DNA of 64,000 nucleotides from Stichopus chloronotus (Eukaryota; Echinodermata; Holothuroidea; Aspidochirotida; Stichopodidae). Location of the stretch: positions 11,447,404 through 11,511,403 of the forward strand of contig CM037842.1 in the NCBI GenBank assembly GCA_021234535.1, read 5' to 3'. How positions within the stretch are numbered: position 1 is the stretch's first letter; each line of letters starts with the position of its first letter. Of the stretch, positions 23,700-44,809 are shown one piece after another. A model generated the notes under the pieces. The model saw only the letters and a list, made by a program, of their open reading frames with translations. It was not told the origin of the DNA and made no database searches. Position numbers and translations under genes: made by a program.

Positions 23700-24513
23700 C
23701 TGAGAATTTCGAGGGCTTAGAGACATTCGCGGGACACAGGAAAAATCGTCAATTTGAAATAAGTTAAACGGCAAAACTGGAGGTGTTATTCCTTTCAACA
23801 AGAAACATCAGCAGTGCATTTTTGGCATGTTTTGGGCCTATATTGTGGTTGGTTTAGTGTAATAATATTGTTGTGTGAATGTTGTCAATGTTATTACGGA
23901 GAAAAGGGAGGAGTAAGTCAGTGAAATTCATGTATTTGCATTAAATGTGCTGAATAAAATGCAGTGATTGGGAAGGTAACATCATAACTCCAATGCATCT
24001 TGTCGACCAGGAAACTACTTTAAAACATTTTGTATGATACAAATGACATAGTTTCGGCTCAAACTCTGATATTAAGACAGGTACCGAAGAAAAAAAAGCA
24101 AACGAAAACAAAAACAAAAGACACCCCCCAAAAAGAAAAAAACAAACAACTAACATGTTAGTCACTGTGGTCCGTTGAAGAAGATTGATGTATATATGTT
24201 ATTTATTCAAATTGTTTACAGTGATGACGTTTTGTCTGGTATTAAAGTAACTACGCTTCATGACTGTTATGACTGACTTGCAGGTTAATCTGGGTGACAA
24301 AGTGTACTGTCATTAAACAAATAAACCCCTAGAATGCAAATTTAATAAATGTGACGTTTTGCTCATATTCACATAACAGTGACATTGTTGCACCTATTCT
24401 ATTGTACCGTACATGGTGCACTGTAATATGTCAGTCATTTTAAGCAGTTTCAACGGACTTCAGAGTACATATTTGTTGTTAGAGCTGTATCGTAATATTA
24501 ATATTTATATTAA
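23700..24513. other. Non-coding stretch
   Basis: No gene or clear repeat; an A-rich tract lies at about 24090-24150. Confidence 0.5.
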
Positions 24514-24790
<277 letters not shown>

Positions 24791-25384
24791 ACGTTCTACC
24801 AAATGTTTTGACAGGAAAATTTAAGCAACCCGAGGGAAAATTGCGTAGATCACAAGACTGAAGATTACATATGTTACCAGCTTCATGCAATATAAAAATT
24901 ACAGTCACAAATCTTGATTTAGGGGCCAAAAATGTATAAAACCAGCCTTTACTAACGTTCTACCATTATTTTAATATTAAGCTGAATCTACAGATCTGAC
25001 TTCAACGCATTTTTGTAGAACGTACGTGGAGCTACTTCAGAACTGGGATTCCTACCAGCATTCTACAATTGCGGTAACACTCCTGTTGCAACGCAATGCA
25101 ACAGCTACTCATCAATGTTATTTCTAAACGCAACTATTTCTGCTGCATACAAAAACATGAAATAATCTATTCATTCATGATCACTCCTTTCCAACAAAAA
25201 ATATACAAATAAACCCCCACATTAAAATTAAACTTGTTATATTCATAATCGAGATTCAGAATACTTTCATTTGAAAATCCCCAAACCCATGGGCCCCGAT
25301 AACTAATTTTTATGATGCACCTTGTCCAAAAATGTTCAATTTTCTTTCAAAATTTCGCTCCAAAATTGCTCCCGAACACCTGAG
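24791..25384. other. Non-coding stretch
   Basis: Nothing recognised. Confidence 0.45.
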
Positions 25385-25585
25385 ACAATCTTGGACAAAA
25401 AACCTTGGGACACCCCGCCCCCCCCGTTCAGTGTTGGCTATAGGATTGCTGTTCAAAGGGTACATTCACTTCTATAGCGCAACATCGGAAAGGGGCGCGG
25501 GGTTTCATGTTATCCTCTCACCTAAAATCCAGTATTGTATTTGCAACGTACGACAAAGTGTCCCAACAATTTTGTCCAAGATTGT
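25385..25585. mobile_element. 200-bp MITE, copy 2
   Basis: Same orientation as 23500-23699, with only a few substitutions. It starts ACAATCTTGGACAAAA and ends TTTTGTCCAAGATTGT. Its left flank CCTGAG resembles the reverse complement of the CTGAG just right of copy 1, so the true termini may extend a few bases further out. Confidence 0.8.
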
Positions 25586-26415
25586 AAGTCATAAGAGATA
25601 TATAATACGAATACAAAAATAGAATAGGAAAATATCAAAAAGTCGAGGTACATCTCACCTTGTTAGCTTAAGTTCGCCTTCCCTGGCTGTAACGGCAACA
25701 TATACAGGTACAGGTAGGTTGACACGGAATTCCGGCACATAGCAGAATTAAAGGACTGATTCACTGACAATGACGCAAAGAGCTACGATAGCCAGCTGAA
25801 TCGACTGCTGACGCATGATTGCACATACAAAGGAATGCACGAAATCTTCGGACTGTACGTTAGCACAAAAATTCTTAAAACTTTCATTACATTGAGGAAC
25901 CACCCACAATCATTCAACAGGTGGAAACTATATTGGAAATTGTCACTCGAGGGAAAAGATATTGAACGCCAAAGTGCATATACCAATGTCCGATTGTAAA
26001 CCAAACACAGTGCATCTTGCACCATTCACTAACAACAAGTAACGGTACACGTACCTATACATCCTGTAACATTGTACTTGATCGGTGTTTGGGTTTAAAG
26101 TTAAAATCCATAGTTATAGCTAGAAATGACTTGCGCGAAAACAAAAATAAAACAATAAAGTATTAGTCATTCCGATTTACTTTGTATTTAAAACTCTCTA
26201 TAAGTTATATTTCTTTTTAATTTGAGCACTCTCTGATTCTGAGATATTTATTCATTTGTTCATTTTTTTTACCTTCGACAATATTTCTTATGTTTGAAAA
26301 CTGCGACTACATTCACGTATTTACATGCTATTTAAAGTACTTTCTATAAAAATAGCTAAAGCAGCATATTCCTTGTTTTAAAGTAATAATTAAGGTAGGT
26401 GGAATTAACATTATC
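25586..26415. other. Non-coding stretch left of the large transposon
   Basis: No gene seen; a short block at about 25950-25970 resembles the 22.8-23.2 kb repeat. Confidence 0.45.
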
Positions 26416-26417
26416 TA

Positions 26418-26640
26418 CACTCAGAAAACAAATATGTAAAATTATGATAAGTAAATCACGTATTGTAAAAAATACACAATTTTCTGCAAATATTACACAA
26501 CATTAAGTAAAAACGTTCTAAACATGCTACAATTAACTTACCAAAATTTCATGTAAAGACCTACAAAATCATTCATGTAATTTTTGCAAAAGAGTTAACC
26601 AATTTGAAATGACTTTACATGATGAAATAGTACTTGGACT
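26418..26640 (+). repeat. Left terminal region of the large transposon
   Basis: CACTCAG heptamer at 26418-26424, followed by repeated TGTAAA, AGTAAA and TTTACATG motifs up to about 26640, the expected pattern for transposase-binding subterminal repeats. The SAM gene start codon lies 350 bp from the tip. Confidence 0.7.
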
Positions 26641-26767
26641 ACTTTGCAAAATAATATAACAACTTTTAACGGAAAATTTAGTAATACGGCCCGACATATG
26701 CATGCTTGCTTTGCGAACACTGAAAGCTACCCGACCGACTGCTCATGATTTCGCACCTTGCGCAATT

Positions 26768-26840
26768 ATGGCATCGGAGCCGACTTGGAAGATTACGTTA
26801 AGTGATTGGGGTTTATCAGAACTAATAAAAGAATTCGAAG
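26768..26840 (+). CDS. SAMD3-like exon 1 (start codon, first half of SAM)
   Basis: ATG at 26768, then MASEPTWKITLSDWGLSELI; the W..L..WGL..LI..F pattern is the N-terminal half of a SAM fold. It ends in phase 1 at a GTAAGT donor. This ATG is preferred because it starts the SAM helix and is the first in frame. Confidence 0.75.
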
Positions 26841-28470
26841 GTAAGTTTTAGTCTTTCTGTGAGTGAAACTCGACAATTGAACTGCAAATGATTTGTAATT
26901 ATAAGATATAAAGTCTGCTTCACGTAACCCGATACTACTATTTATAACGTATCGTATAACGTATCCCGGCCATAGCATAGTTGTAGTATAGTATTGAAGG
27001 CATAGGCCATGTGTGGTACTAATAAGACTGTCGGCCATTGCGTGGCTTTGAGACGTCAGTTTCATACATTTCATTTGTGATTTTCACATAGAGATATGAT
27101 ACACACCCTAAGAGTAGAATCGTGGCACTGCACCATATTATTGTGAGTTGTAGGATTCTGTGGTTTTTAAACGTCGTTAGGTTACCGTCAAAGTTAAGAT
27201 TATTCCTAGGCTAGTAGAGACATACCTATCTTGCTATTACTAACGTTAAGCCCTAGCTCCAACTGTATGCTGTAGCCAGCTATGAGCATTTCACGCAATC
27301 TGCCTATGCCTGCGTCTAACGAAACAGGAAATGTGCACTGGCTGGGGGAGGATGGGAGGCAGTTGCGCAAAATATATATAGACATGGGAGCTGGAGTTTT
27401 TGTCGCCCTTAGGCCTGCTGAGGTTAAACCCGGTCACCCTGGCCCATGAAAATTGAAACATGCCTACTGTGGAGTGGAGTGTAGTGTACTGTAAGTAGCG
27501 TTACGCTAGCAGAATGTCATAACACTACAATGGTTTTAATTTTACAGTTATTACTGTAGTCTCTATGTTGATCGGGTGCATAACATCGAAACCATCAAAA
27601 TTAAAATAGCCCCTAGGCCTAGGCAATATATGATCATGACACACTGCTAAACTGAACCCAAAATAAAACTGGTCATTAGTTTTGGCAGTGAAGATTGAAG
27701 AACAGTTTGCAAATCTCAGGTATGCTTTCAGCGTTTTTTAATGCAATGACAATGGAGTGAGTGCATGACCCGAATCTTTTGATTTAGCATAGTACATTCA
27801 ACCAGTTTTACGAGGCCTACAGTGGGCCGGAATGGTACAACAATGAGTACTTGCAACCCTCTCACACATATTATCGGTATGCCTTGAAACAGGCAAAATT
27901 AGGATAGGCAAACTAAAATTTTTTCTTCGAAATTCCTGTAAACAATAGCTGTATTGCACAACTGTATAGTAGCTTTGCTCACGGATTAATTAGGGCAGAC
28001 TGTGTAGCTGAATGCTCGCCTGCTATACTGGGCTGTTTATGCTTTTAATGCCAATGGATTGTTTTGGCCATGTTCAGTGTGGCTGCAAAACTTATCATTC
28101 TCTTGCAGGCCCTTCTGCAGGTTTAGCTAACATAATTCTTCAGTAACATTTGGTCAAGAGAACTTTTACCATGGGATTTCTCATAATTGCATTGTGCCAG
28201 GTTTTGTACATTTATTCGTCGTATAAAAGGGAATGTCTGTGTAGTGTTAGGGTTGGCTGTTTGGGTGGATGAAGGGAGGAAGTTTGTGGTTTATCTTGTT
28301 TAGACGTAGTGAACTTATACGGTAGCTTTGCTGTGTACACATGTGCAGGTGGTATTCAAGTTGTTTGATAAGAGATCTTTGATCAGTGCCATGTCTGCTG
28401 TACTTTAAAACCTGATTTTGTTTGGTTTGCATTGTAAGGCAAACTTTCAATTACATTTTACCACATTTAG

Positions 28471-28580
28471 ACCAAGAATTTGACGATGAGGCATTTTTAC
28501 TATTAACAGAAGAAGACGTAAAGCAATGAATACCAAAAATGGGTCAGCGTTTGAAGTTTATTAAACTCTATCGTGAAAAG
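28471..28580 (+). pseudogene. SAMD3-like exon 2 (second half of SAM) with in-frame TGA
   Basis: Acceptor ATTTAG at 28465-28470. The exon encodes EFDDEAFLLLTEEDVKQ, then TGA (28527-28529), then IPKMGQRLKFIKLYREK, and ends in phase 0 at GTGAGT. The LL.LTEEDVK and MGQRLKF..LY patterns are diagnostic of SAM. The stop falls between two conserved helices. Confidence 0.75.
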
Positions 28581-28985
28581 GTGAGTATTATATTCTTACA
28601 TTACAATATTATTGATGATTGAAAACATAATTAAATTCACAAATAAAAATATTGACCTCTGCAGAGTCTTGAAAAAATGCTGCTCTTTGACACATCTGTT
28701 AAAGTTGTGTTGCAATGACCCATCAATTGTAAGAGTCTTAGAAGATAATAATTTAATAAAGTATACAGAATCAGTGTACTATATAGAAGATATTCTGACA
28801 ATATTTTTGTCAAGATTTGACGCAGGTTAAAATTTATAACTCTTCTTTTGCAGATTTTCCAGTAAAATGAATTCAGATGCAAATTCTGTAACATATGGTT
28901 TGGCTTCCTGTACTGTACACATACTTGACAATATAGTTCTCATCACTTTACAAGCACATGTTAACTATTAAAACACGTCTGCAGT

Positions 28986-31402
28986 ATGGATCCTGAATGC
29001 TTCACTTGTTTCAAATGCTTGAACAAAATCAAAGGTGGACTAAATGGTCTATTTCTTCACATGAAAATCAGCCATTTGATAGTGACCTCTACTTCTACAA
29101 AATTTGTTTGTGCAGAAGGTAACTGTAAGCAAGTTCTCTCGAGGGGGTCCTCATATAAGCGCCATTTAATCCTCAATCGTATTCACCAAAGACATAATAG
29201 ACAGTACCAAGATGAAGTTGAAGTTATAAATGAAGATGCGGCTAGTATTGCTGATGATCTCGAGGGTCGACTTTGTCAAGGGGAAATGCAAGAAAATGTA
29301 CATAATGACATTAATAATTCAGTAGCAGTATATATTTCTCACTTACGCAGTTGTGCAGTTCCAACTTCAGTTGTCCAATCTGCTCTCAATGAGTCAAGAG
29401 ACCTTGTGAGAACCATAATAGACAGCATAGAGGCTAAATTGAATTCAGTGTTACAAGACACCAGAGAAGGCAGGCTTCCACCAACTTAAAATGTTGACTG
29501 TGTACAATTATTTCTTCAGAGCATGAAAGATCCTTTAGAAGAATTACAAACTGAATTCTTACAAACAAAGCATCCTAATAATTGTGGTGCAATTGTTTTG
29601 CCAAAAGAATACGTTCTTGGACAAGGACACAAATCTCGCAATGACAGAAAAACAAGGAGAATATATCAAGAGAAATTCAATGAAACATTCCAGTCTATTC
29701 CATTGAGGGAAATCATTATAAGGTTTCTACAACAACCAGGTGTTATGTCAAGTATTCTCAGTATGCAGCAGTCAACTGACCAGGATTTATTGAAGTCATA
29801 CTTAGATGGTTCTTCATTTAAAGACATGAATAAAGGCAGCGGAAGGGAACTTATTCTCCCTGTTTTAATCTATTCAGACGACTTTGAAACAGCAAACCCA
29901 CTAGGGTCCAGGAAAGGAATACACAAATTAACAACATATTACTGGTTGCTCTTACTCTTGCATCATATGTTAATAAGTATGGAATTGACAGCATATTAAT
30001 TGTTGTAACAAACGAATTGAGAGAACTTCAATTAAATGGAATTGAAATCAATTGTCCAGGTGGATATGAAGGTCTTGTTAGATCTCAACTCTTCCAAGAT
30101 ACAGGAGATAATTTGGCCTTAAACTTGATGTTACATCTTTCTCTGCTAATTATTTCTGCCGTATCTGCAAAATCCATAAAACCGTTGCGGATTTATCTTG
30201 TGCTCAAGCTTCTCATCTGTTGCGTACAAAAGAAAACTTTGCCACTGATCTCCAAAAGGACAACTAACCTGAAACAGGCATTAAAAGATTCAGTGTATTA
30301 AACACACTCCCTGATTATCATGTGACTTTAAATGTGGCATTGCATGTGATGCATGATTTTCAAGAAGGGATACAACCACTAGAGCTGAAGCTGGCGCTTC
30401 AAGCTCTTGTACTTGAGGGAAGCATCGAACTTGATGAAGTAAACTCCCGAATAAAGTGCTTCAATTTTGGATTTAATGCCAAGAAAAACCGCCCTAGTTC
30501 CATTTTGCAATCACATTTGAACAACCCAAATGGGTCCAGTGGACAAAAAGCTGCTCAGATGGAATGCTTGGCTTTATTCTTTCCTCTTCTCATTGGCGAC
30601 AAAGTAAATGACGACTCAGAAATGTGGGAATTATACTTACCCATTTTAGACATTTTTAGTCAAATCACCAATTATTAGCAAAACTGCAACCTACATGCTA
30701 AAAAGCAAAATCCTAGAACACCATCAGCTTTTCATGCAATTATTTCCAGATAGAAAGTTAACACCGAAGAAACATAACTGTCTTCATTATCCTCATGCTA
30801 TAAAACTGTTGGGACCACTTTCACAGTACTCAGTAATGCGAATGGAAGCAAAGCATAAAGTTCTGAAAGGTTGGGCAAAATCATCAAACAGTTATATAAA
30901 TATTGCCAAAACATTGGCCTTGAAGCATCAGCAAGCCCAGGGGCTCAACTTCTTAATGAACGAACACATTGATTTTAAAAGTAAAGAAATTCACAGTAAA
31001 AGTGTTACAGAGTTTTCCTCATTGGAGAATGCAGAGGAGGTGTGTGAAGTATTGGGTTGCAATCTAAATGAAAGCATTATTATAGTTAATTCTGCACAGA
31101 TAAATGGCTACACTTTTAGAAGTAATGTCTCTGTACTTCTGAAGTGGGAGGAGGATCCTTGGTTTGAAAAAATAGAATATATTATAGAGATTGGCTCTGC
31201 TTTGAAGTTTTTAACAAGGTCATGGGACACCCTCTATTTCCACAACCATTACTGTGCTTATGCTGTTAAAAAATCATTACAGGACAAACTACACATCAGA
31301 AATCCATATGAGTTGTTTGACCACAAACCTTTTCACACTGTTAACTGTTATGATCCTCAAGATACAATATTGTACATAGTTACTCACTTTAATCTAGCAT
31401 AA
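28986..31402 (+). pseudogene. Zinc-finger transposase-like gene nested in intron 2 of the SAM gene
   Basis: The first frame (28986-29486) has two C2H2-like fingers, CFKCLNK...HMKISH and CAEGNCK...HLILNRIH, then a helical region. The second block includes YSDDFETANPLGSRKG. Later blocks hold GDNL, YFCRICKIH, VMHDFQEGI and VMRMEAKHKVLKGW. These motifs, in this order, are known from multicopy fish and invertebrate proteins that I take to be CACTA/TNP2-like DDE transposases; the conserved acidic residues in FETANPLG, GDN and EAKH are candidate catalytic positions. Breaks: TAA at 29487-29489, a frame change near 29940, another near 30140, TAA at 30265-30267, and a frame change near 30660. It would be skipped by the phase-0 splice of SAM exons 2 and 3, so it is probably a separate transcription unit. 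Confidence 0.75.
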
Positions 31403-31751
31403 TACTGTACATCACTGGGCAGCCGTTGGAAAGATGATGTTCACCAAACCAAGATTAGCATTAAAGTTAATTTCAGAAACTCAAGCTTTGGTTGGTACTG
31501 TGCCGTACACTACTCTAAAAATGTAACCTGTGTTCTCTTAGTCAAAATGAAAACAAATATTTCTGTAATTTAATGTAATGAGCGATTGTTAAATATTAAT
31601 TTGTGTCTGTTATCTGTTGCAGGAAATCTTATTAAATGAAGACAGTTTCATTAGTTTAAATATGCAATACACTATCGCGTGATCTTGAAGAGAAGAATAT
31701 TTGTGCATTCAAAAATGCTGTATGATTTTTTTTTTTTTTTTTGTACTGTAG

Positions 31752-32108
31752 TTTTGGAAAGTTATGCCAACTGACAGCTATTCATGCAAAGTGGATTTGT
31801 CTGATGTTGAATCATTGTTCAGTAGCAGTACTGTGACGAGCGACTCGGAATTGTCATGGAGTGAAGAAAGGTCGATGATTACACCTTCACCTGCTGAAAC
31901 AATAATCCTATCTGATAGCCCTGCCTCCTTGCGTGTCCCTCACACAATCAACCTGACTGACTTTGGTGAAGTGAAAGGTCTTCCAGATTCAAACAAAGAA
32001 CAATTTTGCGGTACCCAGGCCAGGGTTGTTGATGAATCCCGACCATCTGGCTCAGGGGTAAACACCAGCACTTCTGGCAGTCAGCTGAGCCATAAGCCTT
32101 CAATGTTT
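31752..32108 (+). CDS. SAMD3-like exon 3 (serine/threonine-rich linker)
   Basis: A long T-run and TACTGTAG acceptor precede a phase 0-0 exon of 119 codons that is rich in Ser, Thr, Asp and Pro, with no fold expected. It ends at a GTGAGT donor. The open frame runs past the donor to 32171, but the splice keeps phase with exon 4. Confidence 0.65.
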
Positions 32109-32756
32109 GTGAGTTTGGATTTTAAGTACTGTAGCATTCTCATAAAAGTCTTTCGTAAGATTTGGGTATAGAGCTATGACACAGTTTTTTTTTTTCTATC
32201 AAATAAAAGTAAGTGTTTGGAATCCCCAAAATTCAACAGTTCTGTGATGGTTTTGTTACATTTTTGTTAACAATTAAGGACGATTATGTTGATAATAGTG
32301 GCCACATGCAGGTAAGAAACTTGCACGTTGAAGGTGGTGTGTGTGTACTCAACGTGTGTGTGTGGTTGCATTGGTATGACGGGGGTAGACTAGGAGGGAC
32401 TTTTTGTGGCATTTGTGTTGTCTTTAACGATTACGAGAACTTCTGCAGATGTTATATTTAACATGTAAATTCCCTATAGTGAGAACATAAATCTTTTTCT
32501 CCTTGATGCATGTTAAAGGACACTTGGGGATAGTAAATCTACAGCTATCTCTAGTATACAAGTAGTGTATACTTTCACCAGTGTTGAGAACATCATCAAT
32601 TCTGAATGGGACGAAACAATTCATGTGATGGTCATTTGAAAATTCTGAACTTCATGCCCACAAGTTTTACAGACTTCAGTTGATTAGTCTGTTGTAGGGG
32701 CAATTGTTGCATATTATTCGCACTTATCTCTGTGAATATTGTTTCATTCAATTCAG

Positions 32757-32896
32757 GATGTCAGGAAAATCCACTCGGTGGACAGGAATGGACAGGAGTT
32801 AATGAAGAGACTTGATAAAGCTCAGAGATGTGTGAGGAGTGATAAACGAAAACTATGCAACATCCTGGCTTCACACATCACCAAAAGTGGATACAA
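32757..32896 (+). CDS. SAMD3-like exon 4
   Basis: Acceptor TTCAATTCAG. The frame DVRKIHSVDRNGQELMKRLD... is basic and helical, and contains CNILASHITKSGY. The donor GTAAAT leaves phase 2, which exon 5 completes. Confidence 0.65.
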
Positions 32897-33469
32897 GTAA
32901 ATCAATCACTTTCGTTTTATTTTAAACATTAGTCTTGTTGCTGTGTCCAGTGCAAAACTCTGACAGGTTCTAGTGGCCCACATTAGGAACCCAAAATATT
33001 TGTTCAATAAATGGAACAATGTCATATTTCTGTTTCCTTCAAAATTTAAAAATATATGAGGTTGTCTTGACAGATTTGACACATATAAACACCCATAAAA
33101 ATAGTTCAGAGCAAAAACATTTTAATTACCTGTAAGAGGAACAAGGTCAAGGCATTCTGGTAAAAGTTGCAACTGTAACCATGTGGTGTTAATGAGATAT
33201 TGACAGTTAAAAGTTTCCACATTCATCCAATGTGAACTTGAATCTAAACAAATTTGATATCATGGATGCACAATGGCAAAAGTATGCATTGTTACTCTTT
33301 ACATTTTACTCTTTTGGTTTGACATTAATGTGGCAAATATATGGGTAGCTTGCTTACCTACAGTTTTGCATACTTAGCAAAACATTTTTGTTCTATCTAC
33401 CATGAAAGTGTTTAACTGTACATGGTTAGTTAACTCATAGCCCTATAGGGGCTAGATGAGATATTGTAG

Positions 33470-33790
33470 TCATTTGGCTAGTGGAGCTATATATTGTACT
33501 GTGCACCCATGGGAGAATGGTTGCCATGGAAACGCTTGGAGTGGATGACAAGCGACACCCGAGGGGTACCCCATGGTAGAGTGACCATGGGTACAGGAGG
33601 GTCCTGTTGGGTGGTATAAATGAAAACGTGCCAATACGTGTGTGTGTGGGTGTGTGGGTGCATGTGTGCGTGTGTGCGTCCGGACCTGTCCAAATTGTGG
33701 TTTTTCCAGAATATTTTGAAAAGCATATGAGTGATTAAGTTGAAACGTGGGAAGGTTGTGCATGATGCCAATATGTGCAAGATGTATTAG
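33470..33790. repeat. GT-rich intronic tract
   Basis: GTGTGTG- and CATGTGTGCG-type simple sequence at about 33640-33680 inside intron 4 of the SAM gene. The overlapping antisense reading frames, rich in HTH, are artefacts. Confidence 0.6.
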
Positions 33791-33794
33791 TTGT

Positions 33795-34390
33795 ATGGTA
33801 AATCAAGTCAAATTTGCTGATTTTTTTTAGAAAAAAGTCTATTTTGCTCCAAAATTGCTATTTCCAGCATATCTTGTGAAGTATTTGAACATTTAATGCA
33901 AAACTTTGCAAAAACTTACGTGAGAATGAAAACTTTCAAGTTATATTACTTTTGCAGTAAAGAGAGTGACATTGGCTGATTTTTTTTAAAAAGGCAATTT
34001 TGCCCCCAAATTTTTATTTCCAGTAATCTTGAGAACTATTAGATCAATTTACTTACAGTTTTGTAAGTACTTACCTGAGGACACATTGTTCAACATAATA
34101 TTACTGTAATGGTAAATCGAGTCAAATTTGCTGATTTTTTAGAAAAATAAGCCAACTTTGCCCCAAAATTGCTATTTCCAGCATGTCTTGAGAAGTATAT
34201 GAGCATTTAATGCAAAAATTTGCAAAAACTTTCATGAGAATGATATATTCGAGGTATATCACTTTTGTAGTAAAGAGGGTGAAATTTGCTGATTTTTGAG
34301 AAAAAAGCCAATTTTGCCCCCAAATTTGTATTTCCATCATATCGTGAGAACCATTAAACCAATGAACTTAAAGATTTGTAAGTACTTAGG
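33795..34390. repeat. About four diverged tandem units of roughly 155 bp in intron 4
   Basis: Each unit has TCAAATTTGCTGATTTTTT, then an A-run, then TTTTGC.CCAAAATT.CTATTTCCAG, then TTTAATGCAAAA.TTTGCAAAAACTT or a diverged equivalent. Units start near 33807, 33970, 34112 and 34270. Confidence 0.7.
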
Positions 34391-34548
34391 CGGCAATAAA
34401 CTATGAGAAACTCCTATGTGCAGGTCCTGTATTGAAATCAATGTGCATGTTGGCAATGAGATACGCAACTCCGTGGCTTGCCCTCTTCTTTTTATTTTAG
34501 AATATCTCTGTATATTATGTTAATGAAATCCTGTGTTTCTACTTCAAG

Positions 34549-34642
34549 CCTCAGACCACCTTCCTTCATCAAAGCTGAAATGGCACAAAGTATTATCAAG
34601 GCATTCCCATACGTGGCAGACCCCAATGGAATAACAGGATAT
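34549..34642 (+). CDS. SAMD3-like exon 5
   Basis: Acceptor CTACTTCAAG. It encodes LRPPSFIKAEMAQSIIKAFP and ends NGITGY at a GTAAGT donor in phase 0. The AFP.V.D..G.TGY pattern is a conserved landmark of the family. Confidence 0.7.
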
Positions 34643-35888
34643 GTAAGTTCTAATTTCAAATTCAGTTGTGATTTTTTTTTTTTTTTTGTTAGTTTGCCTT
34701 TTTCCTTATTGGAGGCATGAGAACTTATTAGAAGGTGTGCATGGTATTATGTTAATATGTGTGTGACACCTTGTCTTGCAAACACGATATCTTAAGCAGT
34801 AAACATTGCCAGTGCATGAACTCAGCTTGGCGTGCAGGTAGCTCCAGGTAGGTAAATGATCCTAATGTTGCTCTTGATGGTGGTCATTGCCCAGTGTCCT
34901 TTGATGTTAGCAATTAAGGCAAAGACATGCCAAACATGCATATGTCAAATGTTCAGATTGTTTGAACTTATAAATTGAGATAGCAGGTAGTCAGTAGATC
35001 TCTTTTCGATCCTTTCGCAGAGGCAAAAGGTCATTCTAGACCACAGTCTGAAATCCCTGTTCAAGCAATGTGTCAGACATACATCAGTCACACATTTGTC
35101 AGGTGAGGAAAATAAGGAAATTTTGTATCAAAAATTTCTATTCATACCTGGCAAGATATCACTACTTTGCTAATTGACTTTTTGCTATCATTTGTGTTCG
35201 ATGTCTTTGCCTATATTGCCCAAATGGGTATTTACATACCCTTAAAAAGCTGGATGGACATTTTGAGAAGACATCTGCAGTATCTATATGAAACTGCAGA
35301 ATGAATACCATGCAGAGTAACAAAAAGAGTTCAAAATGAAATGATGAATTATGCATGTAACAATTTTATTTTCATTGATTGATGACAGGTCAGAGCATAT
35401 ACCTGTACGACATGTATGTGGTAAAGAAGTGGCATAATAGTGGGAAGGATTTGAGATTTTCGGTGTTCATTTCTTGTGATTGTTTGGTTTAGTTCAAAGA
35501 ACTCTTCTTTGCCATGGTCACAGAGCGTCATGAGAGTCTGAGTTAACCCTGGAGATGTAAGGGGGTTACTGCTATTGGATGGTGAAATAAACCTCACCCT
35601 GTGATATTTTGCAGTGACCTGTGTACCGAAGTGTTCCTATATGGTATTTGTCACATTGCAATTTTCTGCAACCTAGTGTGTACTTTCAAACTTATGCTTT
35701 TACAAAAGTCATCTTGCCGACAAGTGCAGATGAAACAGGCAACAAATCAGAAAAAAAAGTGGTGACATGCATTTCACTGTTGAAAAAGCATTATTTCACT
35801 TGATACATATTTGGTTTTCTTGTTGAGTTTCATTTGGTGGAATGCCATTAATAACTATTTCATGTTTTTATTACAAATGTGTCTTCAG

Positions 35889-36057
35889 GAAAGTTTCTGC
35901 TGTAAGGGCTCGAAGAAATCAGGGCCACCATCTGGGCCCCTGGAAGACAGAATTAACTATCTTCGACGTATTCATAATACTGCAGAGTGCCCCTCAGGTA
36001 TAAAACGAAGTGCACCAGGAGGAAAAGATCTAGAAGAATTGTCTGCTAAACAGCAAG
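35889..36057 (+). CDS. SAMD3-like exon 6
   Basis: Acceptor TGTCTTCAG. It encodes SGPLEDRINYLRRIHN followed by a basic, low-complexity stretch, and ends in phase 1 at GTAAGT. The LE.R..YLRR block matches the family pattern. Confidence 0.7.
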
Positions 36058-37042
36058 GTAAGTCTATTCTTTTTGTGAAAAACTGGAAAGACATGTTTCA
36101 AAAGTAAATATTAAAATAATCATCAAAAGCAAAGACAGAGTGTTAGCCGTTCAACCTTTCTTGCAATTTTAGGGAGCTTTAAAACAATTCAGAACATTTC
36201 TTTTGTCGCTGCTTAACACCATGAATCACTAAAATTATAATCAGAACAGATTCTACACTAATATTGTGAACCAAACACAATTTTGGCATTCAAAGTGCTA
36301 CAAGATTTGTCTGTAATACAACTGCAGGGGTGAGTTTAATTAAAGTTTTCGACTTAACTTATGATGAGTTAGTGAGTGGCCACATATTTTTCAGAACTAT
36401 CACAACAAGGAGCTGGTTCTTGAACTGATTGTAGATTCACAAACAAATTGTTTGCCTTGCTCATGCACAGTGCACACCATGTAGTAGAATTGTTTCACAT
36501 CGGTCCTGCACAACAGGTTCCAAAGAGCTGTGTAGGCATGTGCTCAACAAACTTTCAGATATTAAGCTAAGGATATTTTTGTTTCTTAATGATATAAGCA
36601 TGCATCAAGTTTGGCTGTTGACTGACGTGAATGCTGATGTTTTATTCTGTTAGGCACATGTATCGGTGAACTTACCTCGCAGACAAGTGCAGATGAAACA
36701 GAACAAATCAGAAAAAAAAAATACGATGGCTGATGTTTAGAAACCTGCAGTATCACCACAAATTAGGTGTAAATCTGGTGTACATACACATACAGCTGCA
36801 AATCCTTTCTGTCTTAGAAAGAGATACTCTATTGATACTTAATTCACATACCCTATTGGCTGACTGAGGTCACATGCATGGTTATTTGTCCAATTTAGGA
36901 TTTTGGACAATTGAAGTGTGTAAAATTTTAAATACAGTTAGGAAGGGATTGACAAATTATTGAGCTTACCAAGCCATCTTTTGCATGAATACCATCTGAG
37001 AATTAAGCTTCATTGGGGAATTCATTCTGTATTTTGCAACAG

Positions 37043-37227
37043 AGATAAAAATACCTTCTACACAACTGCAATGGCTGAAGGCACACACCGGGCAAGAGGA
37101 CCCAAAGCAAGTGGAAGACTACATGAATAACACAGTTAACTACAGACGTAACTGGATACAAACGCAAACAGATTGTACCATGAAGGAAATTCTGTAAGAA
37201 TTTCGGCATCTCTTAGACCCAGGAATG
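37043..37227 (+). pseudogene. SAMD3-like exon 7 with in-frame TAA
   Basis: Acceptor TTTGCAACAG. It encodes LQWLKAHTG...NYRRNWIQT and ends FRHLLDPGM at GTAAGT. The TAA at 37195-37197 is in frame and also forms a cryptic donor-like CTGTAAGAA. Confidence 0.72.
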
Positions 37228-37889
37228 GTAAGTTTCAGCAAAATCAGTCTAATATTAGTGTAGAATTTGTTAAATCAATGATTAGGTTTGATGCCTGAGA
37301 ATTATTACTACTTTTTTAATCTAATGGAGAATTTGGCTTCCTTTTGTTTTGTTAGTTATGATTAAAAGCCTCAAATCTTCCACACCATAAATAAAATGTT
37401 GCAAAAATTGTGATTGATATATGTGACATACCAAAGGGTTTGTTCTCACTCTTTAATCTTTTTGAAGGAAAGTGATGTGCTTTATTGCAAATCACGAATC
37501 GATTATACATTGTGATATGATATAACAGGGACAAAATAATCACTAAGTGAGCAATACTGTGCAGTACTTGGTAGTCATACTATCCACACATCATACTGTA
37601 AGCTTCACATGCTTATCAACTTTCCTAATATTGTCCTCCTGTATTAATGGGTAATTTGCTAAGTCATCAATGTCTTTCAACATTTTACTCACATTTGCTC
37701 ATTCATCAGCACTAGTTGTATGCGACAAGTGCCAAAGGTTGAAAATCTGTATTTTCAATTAATTAATTGTAAGCAACATTTCTGGAAAAATGATATTTCA
37801 ATATCATGCAGTTTGAGTATGACTTACGTGTCTTTTCATGCATTTGAGATTTTTTGTCAATGTTATAATTAACCTCTTTTCTGATTCAG

Positions 37890-38040
37890 ATTGGAAAGCA
37901 CTTCAGTCTAATCTACCCCGAGGCAACCGAACGGTTTTATGAAAACTGGCCCCAGCTGAGCCTTGACCTAATCAGTTACGCAAAGTTCACACAGAAAGAG
38001 GATTCCTTCTTTGGAAAAAGTCTCACTGAACTTTCACCAG
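37890..38040 (+). CDS. SAMD3-like exon 8
   Basis: Acceptor CTGATTCAG. It encodes IGKHFSLIYPEATERFYENW, which matches the family pattern of a phenylalanine-rich helix after a D.PGM motif. It ends in phase 1 at GTTTGC, a weak donor. Confidence 0.68.
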
Positions 38041-38446
38041 GTTTGCTATTACATATTTGTCAATTTGGAATACTAATAATTTATTGAGGCAACTGCATTT
38101 TGCACAACCATGATGCTGATCAACAAAAAGTGGGACAAAATAACCATAGACAAATGCTGATAAAATTCCAGTCTTTTATTTTTCAATTCAGAATAAACTT
38201 ACAGAATGAAGGATGAGATCTGTGAACAAGATTTGGCTGTATTTGATTCCTTGGTGAACGCTAGATGAATCTCTGTGAGGGGAAGATGTGTGCATGCACC
38301 TGTTTCTACGTGACACCTTGCTTATCAAATGTGTCAAAAATGGTCACATTTTCTTTCTTTATTCTTGGCAGCTTGCATAATAATGTGGTGCGGTAATATA
38401 GTGGGCAACATCCAGGTGTTTGAAAATCATTTTTTTCCCTTTCCAG

Positions 38447-38559
38447 ATGAAAAATACAATGCTGCTATCCATTTACTACCCAACTTTTTTCCTGGGAGAT
38501 GCAAAGGAGGAAGAATTTCAGTGAAGGAGTCATGTGAAGCTTTGGTAGACTTCCATTGT
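38447..38559 (+). CDS. SAMD3-like exon 9
   Basis: Acceptor CCTTTCCAG. It encodes AAIHLLPNFFPGR...ISVKESCEALVDFHC and ends in phase 0 at GTAAGT. AI.LLP..FP and EA...F are family landmarks. Confidence 0.72.
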
Positions 38560-38957
38560 GTAAGTTTTTATGGCCAAAGTGTGAATGTTATTGACAACTA
38601 GGAAACATAATGTGGTTGAAGAGCTGTGCCTTGCATCCCTCAGTAAAATGAGATTTCAATTTCTCTAAACTAACTTGAGAAAGCGATCAAATGGCTTATG
38701 GATTGGAAAGAAAATTGCAGCCATATAATTTTTTTGCATGCACACTACCATGAAAAATGTTTTAATACAAGACCTGCAAGGTGTGATAGCATCTCATTGC
38801 TTGAGCTTGGGTCATTATTTAATGTATTTCATTGTCTTGTGACCTCTTGACTGACTATATGTTTATTTGTTTGGGAAGTATATAAAGTTTGTATCTGCGA
38901 AACTATGAAAGTTTAACACTGCTTCCAATATGATAGAAAGTTCTTAATTTCACACAG

Positions 38958-39192
38958 GAAAGCACGGACTTGGAATTCTACCTACAGAACATTACTGAAA
39001 GGCCACAACCATACGTATTAATTCTTGGCGGAAACAAGCTGGAGCCCATTCGTTATCATAGAGAGGCATGCCTTATCTCAAAGGACACTCATGAAGGCTG
39101 TTGATGTCTGTTTTAAATCGTTTTACGTGTTCAATTGGGAATATCAGAAAGCTTGTATTGGTGTTTGGGAATTTTGTACAAAAAGTGTATGA
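38958..39192 (+). pseudogene. SAMD3-like exon 10, frameshifted, to stop
   Basis: Acceptor CACACAG. The first frame gives PQPYVLILGGNKLEP. After an extra base near 39048 the reading continues as FVIIERHALSQ..., then AVDVCFKSFYVFNWEYQKAC, and ends at TGA 39190-39192, close to the family's usual C-terminus. Confidence 0.72.
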
Positions 39193-39677
39193 GTTGCCTG
39201 GTAGTGTGAAGTGCCACCAGATCAGCTACTTTCGTGCTTTTCGTGCCACCTGCAAGGATAACGATACCATATAGTACAGCTGGATAGTTTTTCTGTTCAA
39301 GATTGGTTTGCGTTTTGGATTTTTGCACTCTTCTGTATGCTTTACAAAGCCATATCTGAGACTGGCTGTCAACTAATTTAGCAAACCTTCTTTGATTGTA
39401 TTGTTTATGCCATAAGTTCTTCTTTTCATTTCCCTGTATTACTGAGTTGTACCGTGTTTCTTAATGACATGTTTTTGCATCTACAAGAAGAAACCTTGTT
39501 CTCAGACTGTTTCCATATATTTTTCATCCGTCCTTTGATCACTTGGAAATTCTCCACATTTTCCTTCAACGATTTATCATCCTTTTATTTATTGTTGCTC
39601 GTTCATTGATCACATGTTGCTTATCCTGTAATACTTGAAAATGAAACTAATAATGATAATACATTATATATATTCTA

Positions 39678-42101
39678 GAAGAAAATGCTGAACAAGCCTT
39701 CAATATATTTATGTCAAAATTTAATTATTATTTGAACAAAAACATTCCTAAGGCTAATCGAAAGTTAAAGCAAAATTGCTCCATCAAACCCTGGATTACT
39801 AAAGGAATACTGAAATCTATAAAAACAAGGAACAAATATTATAAGAGCAGCCTCAAAGACCCCACCACAAATAATATTAACAGATACAAGACGTATCGTA
39901 ATAAGTTAACATCTATTATACGCTTATCAAAGAAAAAACACTATGGCACAAAAATAGAGAACTCAGATGGTGATGTCACTACCACCTGGAAAATTATCAA
40001 TGATATCCTTGGTCGATCAAAAAATTCTACTCCTATACATAGGCTTACTCATAATAATTGTATTTATGACCAACCACATGACATCGTCAATGCTTTCAAC
40101 ACGTACTTTGTTAATATAGGACCTGAGCAAGTCTCATCGGTACAGGCTACTAATGTAAATTTTAAACATTTTCTCAAAACACCATGTGTGTCTTCCTTAT
40201 ATTTTACTCCATCTACACCATTTGAAATAATTCAGGTAGTAAACTCACTTAAATCTAGTGACTCAACCAGTCATGATGAAATCAGCAATAATCTTTTGAA
40301 GAAAATAATTGCGTTCATCGTCTCCCCTATTACACACATCATCAACTTGTCACTAAGTACTGGTACTTTCCCTACTAAAATGAAACTCGCCAAAGTGATA
40401 CCCATTTATAAAAAGGACGATGCCTCTCTGATAAGCAATTATCGTCCCATATCTATCCTCTCTAGCTTCTCCAAAATCCTCGAAAGAGTTGTATATAATA
40501 GACTGTATTCTTTCTTTATGAAAAACAACTTACTCTTTCCATGTCAATATGGCTTTCAAAAACACAAATCTACAGATATTGCTCTTATTGAGCTTTGTGA
40601 TAAGATTTCAATTTCATTATCCAAAAAAGAACATGTACTTGGCGTTTTTATGGATCTTAGCAAAGCTTTCGATACTCTTGACCATCATATTTTACTAAAC
40701 AAATTAAACTTTTATGGTATTAGAGGAATTCCTCTCGTATGGTTTGAAAACTACCTTTCCGACAGAAAACAGTACACTACTTATAATAATGTAAACTCTG
40801 ATATTTCATTGATCAGATGTGGTGTCCCCCAAGGTTCTATCCTTGGACCCTTGTTATTTCTCATATATATTAATGATATTTGTAACTCATCTTCATTACT
40901 TCATTTCATCTTATATCCTGACGATACGAATGTATTTTTATCTCACCATAATTTTGAGCATCTTATTGAAACTATGAATACGGAGCTACCCAAGGTCTCC
41001 ACATGGTTCAGAAGTAACAGGTTATCATTAAATGTAAATAAAACGAACTTTATGCTCTTCAAGAATCAAAGGTCAATTAACACTTACCCTTCCTTTAATA
41101 TTTTTATTGACAATATGAAAATTGATCAAAAAGTAGGTACTAAATTCCTAGGTATTACTGTCGATGAGGAATTGAACTGGAATTCTCATATAGCTAACGT
41201 TATTACGTCTGTATCACGTGGAGTTGGTGCATTGTGTAAAGTAAGTTCTTATATTCCTCGACGAACTTTGATTACTGTTTATAATTCGATTATACTACCC
41301 TTCATTTCATACTGTAATATTGTTTGGGCTTGTCAAAAATCTAAAATTAACTCCTTGCTTCTTCTCCAGAAAAAAGCTGTCCGGATTTGTACGAACTCAG
41401 ATTATCGGGCACATTCGAATCCATTATTTTATGAGCTACGCACACTTACTATACATGATATTCATTACCTCCAAATTGCTCTTTTTATGTACAGATTCCA
41501 TACTCAAGAACTGCCCGCCAACCTGTTACACATGTTTCGCATCAACTCTGCTATCCACAATTATCCAACCCGAATTTCTTTAAATGTTCATCTAGAAAAC
41601 CCCAAAACAGCTCTCGCCCATCGATCTATTAGACACACTGGCCCCGACCTTTGGAATTCTTTACCTATGGATATTCGAATGTGCCCTACAAAAAATAGCT
41701 TTAAGAGACAAATTAAGAGTCTTATCTTGGATAAATATACTATGCAATACTGATTTATTACAAGTGATGTAGAAAACCTTCTTCATCCCTTTCCCTTTGT
41801 TTTTCCTACATCCACCCACCTCCCTCCTCCCCACCTTTTTTTTTTCTTCCTACTCCTAAGGTTCTTTTCTTATTCTTATTTCATTTCCAATTTTTGTTGT
41901 AAATAACTATTGTATAGTTTTGTTGTTCTTAAGTCACCTGATCTTCATTCCCAATTAGTATAACTTTGTTTATTTTCTGTTGGACGTCACCTCAAGCTCT
42001 CTCAGAGCTTATGACGTCCCTTTCATGTATGTGTATATAGTATATAGTGTATCCTGTGCGAACATCACTTTACATGTAATGACATGTAATGACATGTAAT
42101 A
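39678..42101 (+). mobile_element. L2/CR1-like non-LTR retrotransposon nested in the transposon
   Basis: 5'-truncated: coding similarity begins abruptly at about 39678. The tail is three ACATGTAATG decamers (42072-42101) rather than poly(A), as is common in the CR1/L2 group. Left flank GATAATACATTATA and right flank GATTATACATTTA resemble a diverged target duplication. It inserted after the SAM gene stop, so it postdates the host element. Confidence 0.8.
39711..41753 (+). CDS. Reverse transcriptase part of an L2/CR1-like ORF2, open for 680 codons
   Basis: The frame is already open before this ATG, so the ATG is internal to a truncated ORF2. Motifs in order: PWITKGILKSIKTRNKYY linker, KLAKVIPIYKKDD, NYRPISILSSFSKILE, VFMDLSKAFDTLDHHILLNK with the first catalytic Asp, GVPQGSILGPLLFLIYINDI, and YPDDTNVF with the paired catalytic Asp. 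The C-terminal region has RTLTIHDIHYLQIALFMYRF. There is no stop or frameshift over 2 kb, so it is young. The usual YADD or FADD box reads YPDD, which may impair activity. The endonuclease is missing, so the copy is not autonomous. Confidence 0.85.
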   Translation: MSKFNYYLNKNIPKANRKLKQNCSIKPWITKGILKSIKTRNKYYKSSLKDPTTNNINRYKTYRNKLTSIIRLSKKKHYGTKIENSDGDVTTTWKIINDILGRSKNSTPIHRLTHNNCIYDQPHDIVNAFNTYFVNIGPEQVSSVQATNVNFKHFLKTPCVSSLYFTPSTPFEIIQVVNSLKSSDSTSHDEISNNLLKKIIAFIVSPITHIINLSLSTGTFPTKMKLAKVIPIYKKDDASLISNYRPISILSSFSKILERVVYNRLYSFFMKNNLLFPCQYGFQKHKSTDIALIELCDKISISLSKKEHVLGVFMDLSKAFDTLDHHILLNKLNFYGIRGIPLVWFENYLSDRKQYTTYNNVNSDISLIRCGVPQGSILGPLLFLIYINDICNSSSLLHFILYPDDTNVFLSHHNFEHLIETMNTELPKVSTWFRSNRLSLNVNKTNFMLFKNQRSINTYPSFNIFIDNMKIDQKVGTKFLGITVDEELNWNSHIANVITSVSRGVGALCKVSSYIPRRTLITVYNSIILPFISYCNIVWACQKSKINSLLLLQKKAVRICTNSDYRAHSNPLFYELRTLTIHDIHYLQIALFMYRFHTQELPANLLHMFRINSAIHNYPTRISLNVHLENPKTALAHRSIRHTGPDLWNSLPMDIRMCPTKNSFKRQIKSLILDKYTMQY

Positions 42102-43000
42102 TGATTATACATTTAGGAGAAATAGCTGGGTTTTTTGTGAATTTTTTATTTATAGTTTGTTTAGGCAGATAGAAATTATTTCAACGAGGGATCTACTGAT
42201 GAGTCAGTGAAAGTAGACATTAAAACATGATATATCAATTACTTTAACATGGTTGTCCCTGTTTTTAACCATTGAAGGTGCATTTAATACTCTTCGTCTA
42301 AAATCTTGAAGAATTTGATCCTTAACTCTAAACAGGAAACATGATAATTAAGTAATTGCATGATTAGCTGCATAACAAGATGAAAGCTAAAAATTATGAA
42401 TGGAAATGACTATATGTTCAGATCCTTACCTAACTAGGAGAAATTGCTGCTTTTTCATTTAATTATTTATTTAGTTATTGTTATTGGGTATTGATTATAC
42501 ATCTTTGGCAGATGTAAATGATTTTCACCCTGGTTGAGGAGGGGTTTCAACCGACTAATGTCTAATCAGTGAACTGGGAAGTCACAAGTAGAACATGAAC
42601 CTGTTCAGTTCAATATGCAAGAAGGTTTAAAAGAACGTCTTAAAGACTGCAGCAAAATGTGAAGTGGTGGGGGGGGGGGGGGGAGTGGGGAGCTGTGCAG
42701 ATATTTACTAAAAGGCACACAGAAGATTTCATTCCTAGTTCAGTGTGTAAGATGTCAGATCAAAACAAGATGGACACAAACTGAAATACATATTGACTGC
42801 AAACTTTTGAAATAAACGTTGAAATTAAACTGATAATCCTGTATTGTGTTTGTTTTATTGGTATTTGCTGTTCCTTTCTGTCTGGCGTATTGTGGTCAGG
42901 TTACATACAAAGTGTAGTAAAAAGGGCATCCAGCTGCTCAATTTTTACCCAATTGTAACGTAAAATTTACTGATATTCCTTGTAAATTATTTTACTAGAC
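42102..43000. other. Non-coding right part of the large transposon
   Basis: No gene seen. A G-run lies at about 42668-42683. This DNA would be the 3' part of the element after the SAM gene stop. Confidence 0.5.
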
Positions 43001-43182
43001 AGATTTATGTAACATTCACTTCCCAAGCTTTACTTAAGTAATTTGCAATTTTTTTTGCAGGTTTGTCAAGTAAAACTTTACCATAACCAGTTTAGTAAAT
43101 TTTACTTAAAAGTTTTAGTGTTCTGATTTTACATGGTAATTAAGTAAAATTTTACTTAACCTGGGTAAATTTTTTCTGAGTG
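43000..43182 (-). repeat. Right terminal region of the large transposon
   Basis: Repeated AAGTAAAA and TTTTACTT motifs precede CTGAGTG at 43176-43182. The block at 43097-43132 is shared with the MITE at 358-393. Confidence 0.72.
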
Positions 43183-43184
43183 TA

Positions 43185-44127
43185 AAATCATCGGAAAAGA
43201 AGCCAACTGTTGGGTCAGAGTTCATTTCTTGGTACGAGGAAGAATTTGGGAGAAAAAAATCAGTGAGGTGAGTAAGACACTCCATGTTCGCGAAACTACT
43301 ATAGGGCGTTCGTGTAATATGTTAAGGGCGTGGCAACACCAAAGGCTGATTAGCGAAGAACAAAAATTGATATATACCTGTCATTTCTCAACCAATTTCA
43401 CTGTTGGTGGGCTTAAATAAAACGACATTTTATAGGGAAACCACTTTATTAATCATTACTACTGAAGCAATAATTAATTAGCAATTACGATTAATTATTC
43501 TTAATGAGCCCAAATTAGTAAATTTATTTTTTTCTTAAACTCTACACATCAATCTTTTCATTGGTACATAGGATTCTGGCAAAATATTTTGGCAATCTAA
43601 AAATGTACGCTAACAGTGAACTCATTTTTGATCCGTAATAGACCTACACATTACTACTACATTATAGAGGGCGTTGAGGTTTTGTTTCCTTCCTTTCAAG
43701 GATATACAAAGTCTTCCATCGATGAACAAAAATTCACTGTCGAAACTGATAATTTTTTGTTCACAGGCAAATAAGCAAATAATCAGTCATGAAGAATTAA
43801 CAAGATAACAGTTTTACAGAGTTCCTATAATCAGGTATATCGATCTACAGAACAGCTCCAAGTAAACCTTGTGTTCAAACAACTCGTGTGAAATAATGAG
43901 ACTCATAATCTGTTTAGCCATTTCAGTCTTACCGTAATTTACTCAGCTCCTGCGCTTACAATTGTTATACTTTTTTTCTCTGGCGGAAAAAAATCTCTTT
44001 CGTTTCCCTGTAGCCAATGAACACGGCCTGTTCGTCTTTCTTTTTCAGTGCACCAGTTCAAGGATCACATCCTTGTTTTTCCCATTCCGTGACACTAATA
44101 GTTCTTGCGGGTAACTGAAATCTGCAT
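43185..44127. other. Non-coding stretch between the transposon and the Ig gene
   Basis: No coding sequence supported. It may hold the promoter of the Ig gene, but no core element was identified with confidence. Confidence 0.45.
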
Positions 44128-44172
44128 ATGTTACACTCGGTCTATGATCACTCTTGTATTTTCCATCAGAAG

Positions 44173-44269
44173 ATGGATCTTAGACGATGCAAAGGTAACA
44201 ACGGAAAAGAAGGAAGTTTATTTAACTTCCTATATTTGTTCATAATTATGCAGTTTACTTCTCTTAAAG
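44173..44269 (+). CDS. Signal-peptide exon of an Ig-domain gene
   Basis: From ATG 44173, 32 residues with a basic start (MDLRRCKG) are followed by a hydrophobic stretch, LFNFLYLFIIMQFTSL, typical of a secretory signal. It ends in phase 1 at a GTAGGT donor, matching the phase of the next exon. An in-frame ATG at 44128 would add 15 residues; the downstream one places the hydrophobic core at a more usual distance. The product would be secreted or on the cell surface. Confidence 0.55.
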
Positions 44270-44527
44270 GTAGGTCCAAATATTTTGTTTGCCTTTTGTT
44301 CAATAAAATAGATCTAACTATTAGGCAATTTTCAGACGGGCAATCCTGTGACATGAAATTGTCTCTTCTTTTTCTTTTCGTTAGGGCATTTATTTACACG
44401 TCAATATAATACCACATTTAAAGATGTATTCACTGCGTTATGTAATTGATCTAGATTAAATTACATTAAAATGTAACTAACTCTTGATCCGTTATATTCA
44501 CAATTGGAAATTATGGTCTCACTTTAG

Positions 44528-44809
44528 CGATCACATTCACAAACTCAGACAATTGCACGTTGATTGCAAAGTTTCCGGGAGATCAACTAAAACTGGAATG
44601 TGATGTCGGAGAAGCCGAGCTGTCACTTTGGAAATGGGGGCTCGAAGTATTGTATACAGGCACAAGAAAAGTAACTCTTCACAAAAACATCTACCTTGAG
44701 GCAGATGGTTACGCACTGAATCTAAATCCAATCAGTATCGCCAATGGAGGCACTTACACATGCAAAACAACCAACGGAAGAAGAACTCAATATTGTCTTC
44801 AAGTGATTT
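44528..44809 (+). CDS. Immunoglobulin-like domain exon
   Basis: A phase 1-1 exon of 282 bases, the classic form of a shuffled Ig domain, with an ACTTTAG acceptor and a GTAAGT donor. It encodes one Ig-like domain: LKLECDV with the first Cys, LWKWG with the core Trp, and NGGTYTCKT with the second Cys in the Y.C motif. Another Cys pair (DNCTL and QYCLQVIC) may add a disulphide. Together with the upstream signal exon it starts a secreted or membrane receptor-like protein. No later exon could be joined with confidence. Family and ligand are unknown. It is the strongest candidate for an ordinary host gene in the window. Confidence 0.65.

Follow-up and report, generated by a model that had tools for sequence, protein, structure and literature searches.

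Does a gene for a SAM-domain protein that lies beside a transposase, between inverted ends, belong to the animal or to a transposon? The question is raised by 16.8 kb of DNA in a 64,000-nucleotide stretch of the sea cucumber Stichopus chloronotus (the whole stretch is hereafter the window; assembly GCA_021234535.1, contig CM037842.1, positions 11,447,404 to 11,511,403), where a first-pass annotation, made from the sequence alone, took the SAM protein, with a body like that of proteins annotated "SAMD3-like", to be an element-encoded accessory factor and not the product of a host gene. Our analysis supports that proposal: ends and both genes occur together at seven of seven copies of a related young family, and 28 of 37 SAMD3-like loci in the genome are linked to a transposase. 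It is very probable that both proteins, the transposase and the SAMD3-like one, belong to the element. We also consider it likely that the element in the window is a dead copy from a two-protein lineage of cut-and-paste transposons in animals, of the CACTA/EnSpm kind (CMCT clade), with the SAMD3-like protein as a partner comparable to the accessory protein TnpA of the maize element En/Spm.

The young family is decisive for this argument. With the last 250 residues of the window transposase as query, the genome gave 67 matches, seven of them with an 888-aa frame, and these seven frames lie in seven copies of an 11.6-kb element with identical boundaries, ends CACTGTAAAACCC and differing flanks. 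Six copies are 99.57-99.92% identical to the one at C16 over 3,711 bp (contigs are cited by our handles), and in a genome search the left 258 bp of the element matched none but the seven loci. All seven are flanked by a 2-bp target duplication, TA in six and CA in one; the single CA is an argument for assigning the dinucleotide to the target, not to the repeat. The transposase frame is free of stops in every copy, and the SAMD3-like gene follows each time on the same strand, 77 bases past the end of the matched transposase stretch; at C23 it contains a stop. The first-pass annotation had called for an empty target site, and one was found for a single insertion. The joined flanks of six insertions (C253 left out) were searched together, 40 of 2,365 candidates were scored, and all 40 belong to the C1 insertion, which sits in a repeat; these sites run uninterrupted through the junction, without the element. 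The CAC..GTG-bounded unit of the young relative moves as a whole, carrying both genes in fixed order on one strand.

The linkage of the two genes extends across the genome. The first exon of the young family's SAMD3-like gene has 57 matches at 37 loci; the gene is multicopy. At 28 of these loci it is preceded by a transposase, and in all 28 the two genes share one strand and the SAMD3-like gene is the downstream one. Twenty-one were obtained by search, as loci with a transposase match within 10 kb, where 2,000 rotations of the positions gave 2.43 on average and never more than 6. Seven more are the new ones among ten transposase relatives found by examining the 3 kb upstream of 14 SAMD3-like loci that lacked an earlier match: ten of these stretches encode a relative on the same strand and four do not, and a control of eight unrelated 3-kb stretches gave none. 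A tally with a single transposase query and a 20-kb limit reached 17 of 37, and one of these loci, C20:60799 (19.4 kb), falls outside the 10-kb tally. In three compared pairs the two genes resemble each other in divergence and in third-position excess, a pattern to be expected were both needed. C5 (37.7 Mb, about 5% of the 719-Mb genome) holds 12 of the 37 loci, which have perhaps accumulated in a low-recombination or sex-linked region. Separately, a candidate domesticated copy lies at C2:32327670-32328680, where a stop-free SAMD3-like frame runs for 384 aa and the preceding 3 kb contain no transposase.

Turning to the window itself, the element occupies 26418-43182, or 26416-43184 when both flanking TAs are included. 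Its inverted ends (terminal inverted repeats, TIRs) are CACTCAGAAAA, each adjoined by TA: the left boundary reads TA|CACTCAGAAAAC... at 26416/26418 and the right one ...TTTTCTGAGTG|TA at 43182/43184. When all CAC/GTG pairs between 24000-26768 and 41800-45000 were ranked, this 11-base perfect run with its matching TA was the top pair. The CACTCAG ends beside TA, claimed at first sight of the sequence, are thereby upheld, and so is the GTAAA-rich DNA near both of them: with one mismatch allowed, the terminal 2 x 350 bp contain GTAAAATTT 13 times, where the interior would predict 1.07. The motif TACACTCAGAAAA followed by GTAAA within 30 bases has 35 matches in the genome, the window's own two ends included (30 distinct sites by hand count), and its reversed control has 4. 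A related copy at C15 is 86% identical to the window over 353 bp, and the alignment stops exactly at the right TA. The homology with that copy starts only at window position 27379, nothing matching to the left of it, and the copy has no match to the window's transposase region. It also lacks the later retrotransposon nested in the window element; the designation of that insertion as LINE-type (long interspersed nuclear element) is a reading of its reverse-transcriptase frame, made without a profile search. As a separate observation, TACACTCAGAAAA recurs about every 19.7 kb on C247 (7364, 27087, 46827, 66524) and C119 (7355, 27062), as in a long tandem array.

Between these ends lie, as first described, a SAMD3-like gene and a gene for a zinc-finger transposase. 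All parts of the two genes are on the + strand, in the order SAM exons 1 and 2, transposase, remaining exons of the SAM gene. This copy is dead, both genes being broken: stops stand in exon 2 and in one body exon of the SAM gene, whose last exon changes frame, and the transposase has an in-frame stop as well as frame changes.

The same nesting recurs at more distant loci. A search with the spliced SAM protein of the window (X standing for its stops) yielded 16 matches. They fall in the window, on C15, at a single place on C9 and, as SAM exon 2, at C12 and C22; in the last two cases the exon is just 5' of the two transposases whose scores come next after that of the window. C12 has SAM exon 2 first, then an 849-aa transposase frame without a stop, then the body exons in order. 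The transposases of these SAM-type loci are only 35% identical, so the nested arrangement is old. A further type is represented at C22 by a 901-aa transposase with a SAMD3-like body downstream (profile of the accessory-protein alignment, E 3e-20). Between the two a third N-terminal module (...DLPFVEEHDITQILKPIQCRKLL..., L083:414-728) is encoded, in which Pfam recognised no family; a sub-threshold match to 'Corona_5a' was discarded as chance. At C18 the first module of the 901-aa type likewise follows the transposase of another copy.

The SAMD3-like proteins share one body, conserved and mostly helical, on an N-terminus that varies: SAM in the window, PB1 in the young family and in fish, or the third module. 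For the PB1 type, fold comparison confirmed a ubiquitin-like PB1 fold at the N-terminus, matching mainly residues 14-94; a profile search of PDB sequences with the accessory protein found nothing. Several fish and sea-cucumber genomes have relatives that are catalogued as host genes, and the best-matching proteins come from Apostichopus and Holothuria. P0007, a fish protein annotated SAMD3-like, is 38% identical to the element protein over 99% of the 341-residue query; the fish relatives found, in a sample biased by a PB1-type query, have a PB1-like N-terminus and not the SAM domain that had been supposed. The ant protein P0047 (Lasius platythorax) has a SAM-like N-terminus (19.1 bits, cut-off 23) and is 23% identical over 94% of the query (E 1e-5). 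Many genes annotated "SAMD3-like" are probably parts of transposons and not ordinary animal genes.

The class assignment rests on the transposase and on the ends. D362, D454, H688, H692 and E712 are invariant in 13 homologues, as is C479, and C476 nearly so, which gives a DDE core with C(2)C (476/479) and H(3)H (H688-x3-H692) between the second D and the E; the same signature appears in the pieces left in the window. A DDE core with C(2)C and H(3-4)H is the signature of EnSpm, Mirage, Chapaev, Transib, Plavaka and ESTA, according to excerpts of the ESTA study (PMC12730594). The termini agree with the CMCT clade in having CAC..GTG ends and a 2-bp duplication, at all seven young copies and at the window. 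The core and 3-bp duplication of plant-type CACTA elements are absent from both families, which have CACTC (window) or CACTG (young family) and 2 bp. Among the 13 homologues Pfam lists Transposase_21 (tnp2) in two (best E 2.7e-4) and DUF4218 in five (best E 0.0064), at E values up to 1 and with the bit scores seen below the cut-offs. The N-terminus carries C2H2 fingers, and only zinc-finger type proteins are among the best 60 of 95 matches of the transposase profile to PDB sequences. No relative was found in viral contigs searched with the transposase and accessory alignments. In prokaryote genomes, searched with the transposase alignment only, the sole match was a 4.5-kb contig (QNXQ01000188.1) of an Aquifex metagenome-assembled genome, 38% identical, which we set aside as probable animal contamination. 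The C12 relative, which stands outside the 13-homologue alignment, lacks the first H of H(3)H; with no inverted ends in the stretch examined (C12:21494501-21504500), its 849-aa frame possibly belongs to an inactive or domesticated transposase.

Several observations weigh against a two-protein element. Intact copies with shared ends and both genes, which the first-pass annotation expected elsewhere, exist for the related family, but no second complete copy of the window's element was found in the genome, and a genome search with its left 345 bp matched only themselves. Complete ends are known for two families only (window and young), no inverted-repeat pair having been found around the SAM-type locus at C12 or the 901-aa locus. 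A run of at least 11 was reached in 3 of 200 dinucleotide shuffles of the scanned stretches, so the window TIR taken alone is only moderately significant; given the C15 breakpoint, the genome-wide excess of the motif and the subterminal repeats, the ends are stronger than this figure. Subterminal repeats are weaker in the young family (GAGGTAACT 4 against 0.04; TTTGAGTTAA, with two mismatches, 12 against 1.64). As for linkage, nine of the 37 SAMD3-like loci have no transposase found (four examined 3 kb upstream, five not examined), the matches are weak (E 2e-6 to 8e-6) at four of the seven loci added by upstream reading, and no more than 21 of 75 transposase loci are accompanied by a SAMD3-like match at 10 kb or less. 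The last figure, by search alone, is a minimum: the 901-aa family scores none, yet has a SAMD3-like body downstream on reading at C22. The body exons at C12 match weakly one by one, the last excepted. Finally, window exons 1 and 2 joined match SAM_1 below its cut-off (E 0.0039, 17.9 bits against 23), and PB1 scores lie below the curated Pfam cut-offs, with PB1 listed in only four of eight proteins.

What would the second protein do? The body of the SAMD3-like protein may bind the repeats near the element ends, while its SAM or PB1 module would polymerise head to tail, coat both ends and bring them together, after which the transposase would cut. We hold the chances to be about even that the accessory protein acts at the ends by polymerising. 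Both proteins might be made from one promoter through alternative splicing, an intron of the accessory gene enclosing the transposase frame. Read from DNA alone, the order of the exons and the splice-site-like sequences at the window, C12 and C16 fit such nesting, and in the young family a 3' splice-site-like sequence lies between the transposase stop and the ATG of the SAMD3-like gene; on balance we lean towards this arrangement.

SAM and PB1 also occur in chromatin and signalling assemblies, and their presence here would suit a different function, in which the SAMD3-like protein is encoded by the element but counters host silencing or regulates the transposase without binding the ends. This alternative overlaps with our interpretation and disputes the role only. 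It finds parallels in the TET/JBP genes of other CMCT transposons, thought to counter silencing (excerpts of PMC12730594), and in maize TnpA, which also regulates its own promoter (excerpts of PMC1636069); we nevertheless judge it unlikely, though a serious contender, for the dense GTAAAATTT repeats at the ends of the window element suggest a partner that binds there. Much less probable is that the SAMD3-like gene is a passenger, that is, a host gene captured once by a transposon, carried along and dispensable for movement. The nine loci with no transposase found, one of them (C2:32327670) with its stop-free frame of 384 aa, would fit a passenger, but the same body accompanies three transposase groups (888-aa, 901-aa and the SAM type of C12 and the window) in the same order and on the same strand, and divergence and codon-position constraint are matched where compared, whereas decay or loss is expected of a passenger. 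A stationary host SAM gene that received a transposase in an intron, between ends that are coincidental, can be dismissed as highly improbable: the self-matching left end, the equally good shuffles and the broken window copy speak for it, but it is contradicted by the exact coincidence of the C15 breakpoint with the right end, by SAM exon 2 just 5' of a transposase at C12 and C22 as well (with body exons behind it at C12), and by a seven-copy relative that moves as a unit with both genes.

A two-protein element would have precedents. A plant CACTA transposon needs two proteins, and in maize En/Spm the frame of the transposase TnpD lies within the transcription unit of the accessory TnpA; the putative position of the transposase inside an intron of the accessory gene resembles that of TnpD in TnpA. 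Here the duplication is of 2 bp and not 3, the ends are CACTC or CACTG and not CACTA, the transposase has C2H2 fingers, and the accessory protein has SAM or PB1. The two systems have in common CAC..GTG ends, repeats near the ends and two element proteins (excerpts of PMC1636069). In 2006 the authors of SmTRC1 had proposed a TnpA-like second protein for an animal CACTA element, shorter and made by alternative splicing, for which, in the excerpts of their report, no relatives were found (PMC1636069). SmTRC1 and the animal TRC elements of the CACTA superfamily share the 2-bp duplication and animal CACTA-type character with the element described here; as excerpted, SmTRC1 differs in its CCC ends and in a second protein without detectable relatives, which here is conserved and recognisable (PMC1636069). 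ESTA, EnSpm-like elements with TA duplications, have CA..TG ends and the C(2)C and H(3-4)H signature in common with the element described here, but are fungal and carry TET/JBP genes (excerpts of PMC12730594); their TA duplication is seen here in six of seven copies, the seventh having CA. The fish protein P0007 is homologous to the element protein and differs in a PB1, not SAM, N-terminus. Among titles and abstract openings, Repbase not being covered, no paper was found that ties SAMD3 to a transposase or transposon.

If our interpretation holds, the TnpA-like partner gains a conserved identity in animals, under a misleading name, and a multicopy gene family now treated as host genes in the annotation of several fish and sea-cucumber genomes would be reclassified. 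Near-identical copies with unbroken frames make the partner testable, and SAM swapped for PB1 on one body is a natural domain-exchange experiment. More tentatively, and with slightly less than even confidence, we propose a major animal CACTA-like lineage with a conserved second protein whose exchangeable polymerising N-terminus (SAM, PB1 or a third fold) would coat and pair the ends, many fish and invertebrate SAMD3-like genes, and possibly SAMD3, being active or domesticated copies.

Features of the transposon in the window (positions in the window, 5' to 3')
Feature	Position	Strand	Basis
Target-site duplication TA, left	26416..26417	.	Sequence; best pair in unbiased scan
Left TIR CACTCAGAAAA	26418..26428	+	Sequence, pair scan; motif + GTAAA enriched genome-wide
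Left subterminal region, GTAAA / TAAGTAAA repeats	26418..26620	+	Repeat counts
SAM gene exon 1 (ATG; first half of SAM domain; donor GTAAGT)	26768..26840	+	SAM_1 match jointly with exon 2
SAM gene exon 2 (second half of SAM domain; in-frame TGA; donor GTGAGT)	28471..28580	+	Homologous exon just 5' of transposases at C12, C22
Transposase (C2H2 zinc-finger N-terminus; DDE core with C(2)C, H(3)H)	28986..31402	+	Between SAM exons 2 and 3; in-frame TAA at 29487, frame changes
SAM gene exon 3 (acidic/Ser-rich linker), borders approximate	31754..32108	+	Resembles start of Holothuria leucospilota P0045
SAMD3-like body exon	32757..32896	+	Similarity
SAMD3-like body exon	34544..34642	+	Similarity
SAMD3-like body exon	35888..36057	+	Similarity
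SAMD3-like body exon (in-frame TAA)	37042..37227	+	Similarity
SAMD3-like body exon	37891..38039	+	Similarity
SAMD3-like body exon	38445..38559	+	Similarity
SAMD3-like last exon(s), frame change near 39060, end approximate	38958..39230	+	Similarity
Nested LINE-type retrotransposon, later insertion, borders approximate	39690..42101	+	Reverse-transcriptase frame 39660-41753; absent from C15 copy
Right subterminal region, dense GTAAAATTTTAC / TTAAGTAA repeats	42920..43182	-	Repeat counts
Right TIR (CTGAGTG end)	43172..43182	-	Sequence, pair scan; C15-copy homology stops there
Target-site duplication TA, right	43183..43184	.	Sequence

Just outside the element, on the + strand of the window at 44488-44844, lies an open frame that by eye looks like an immunoglobulin-like domain.

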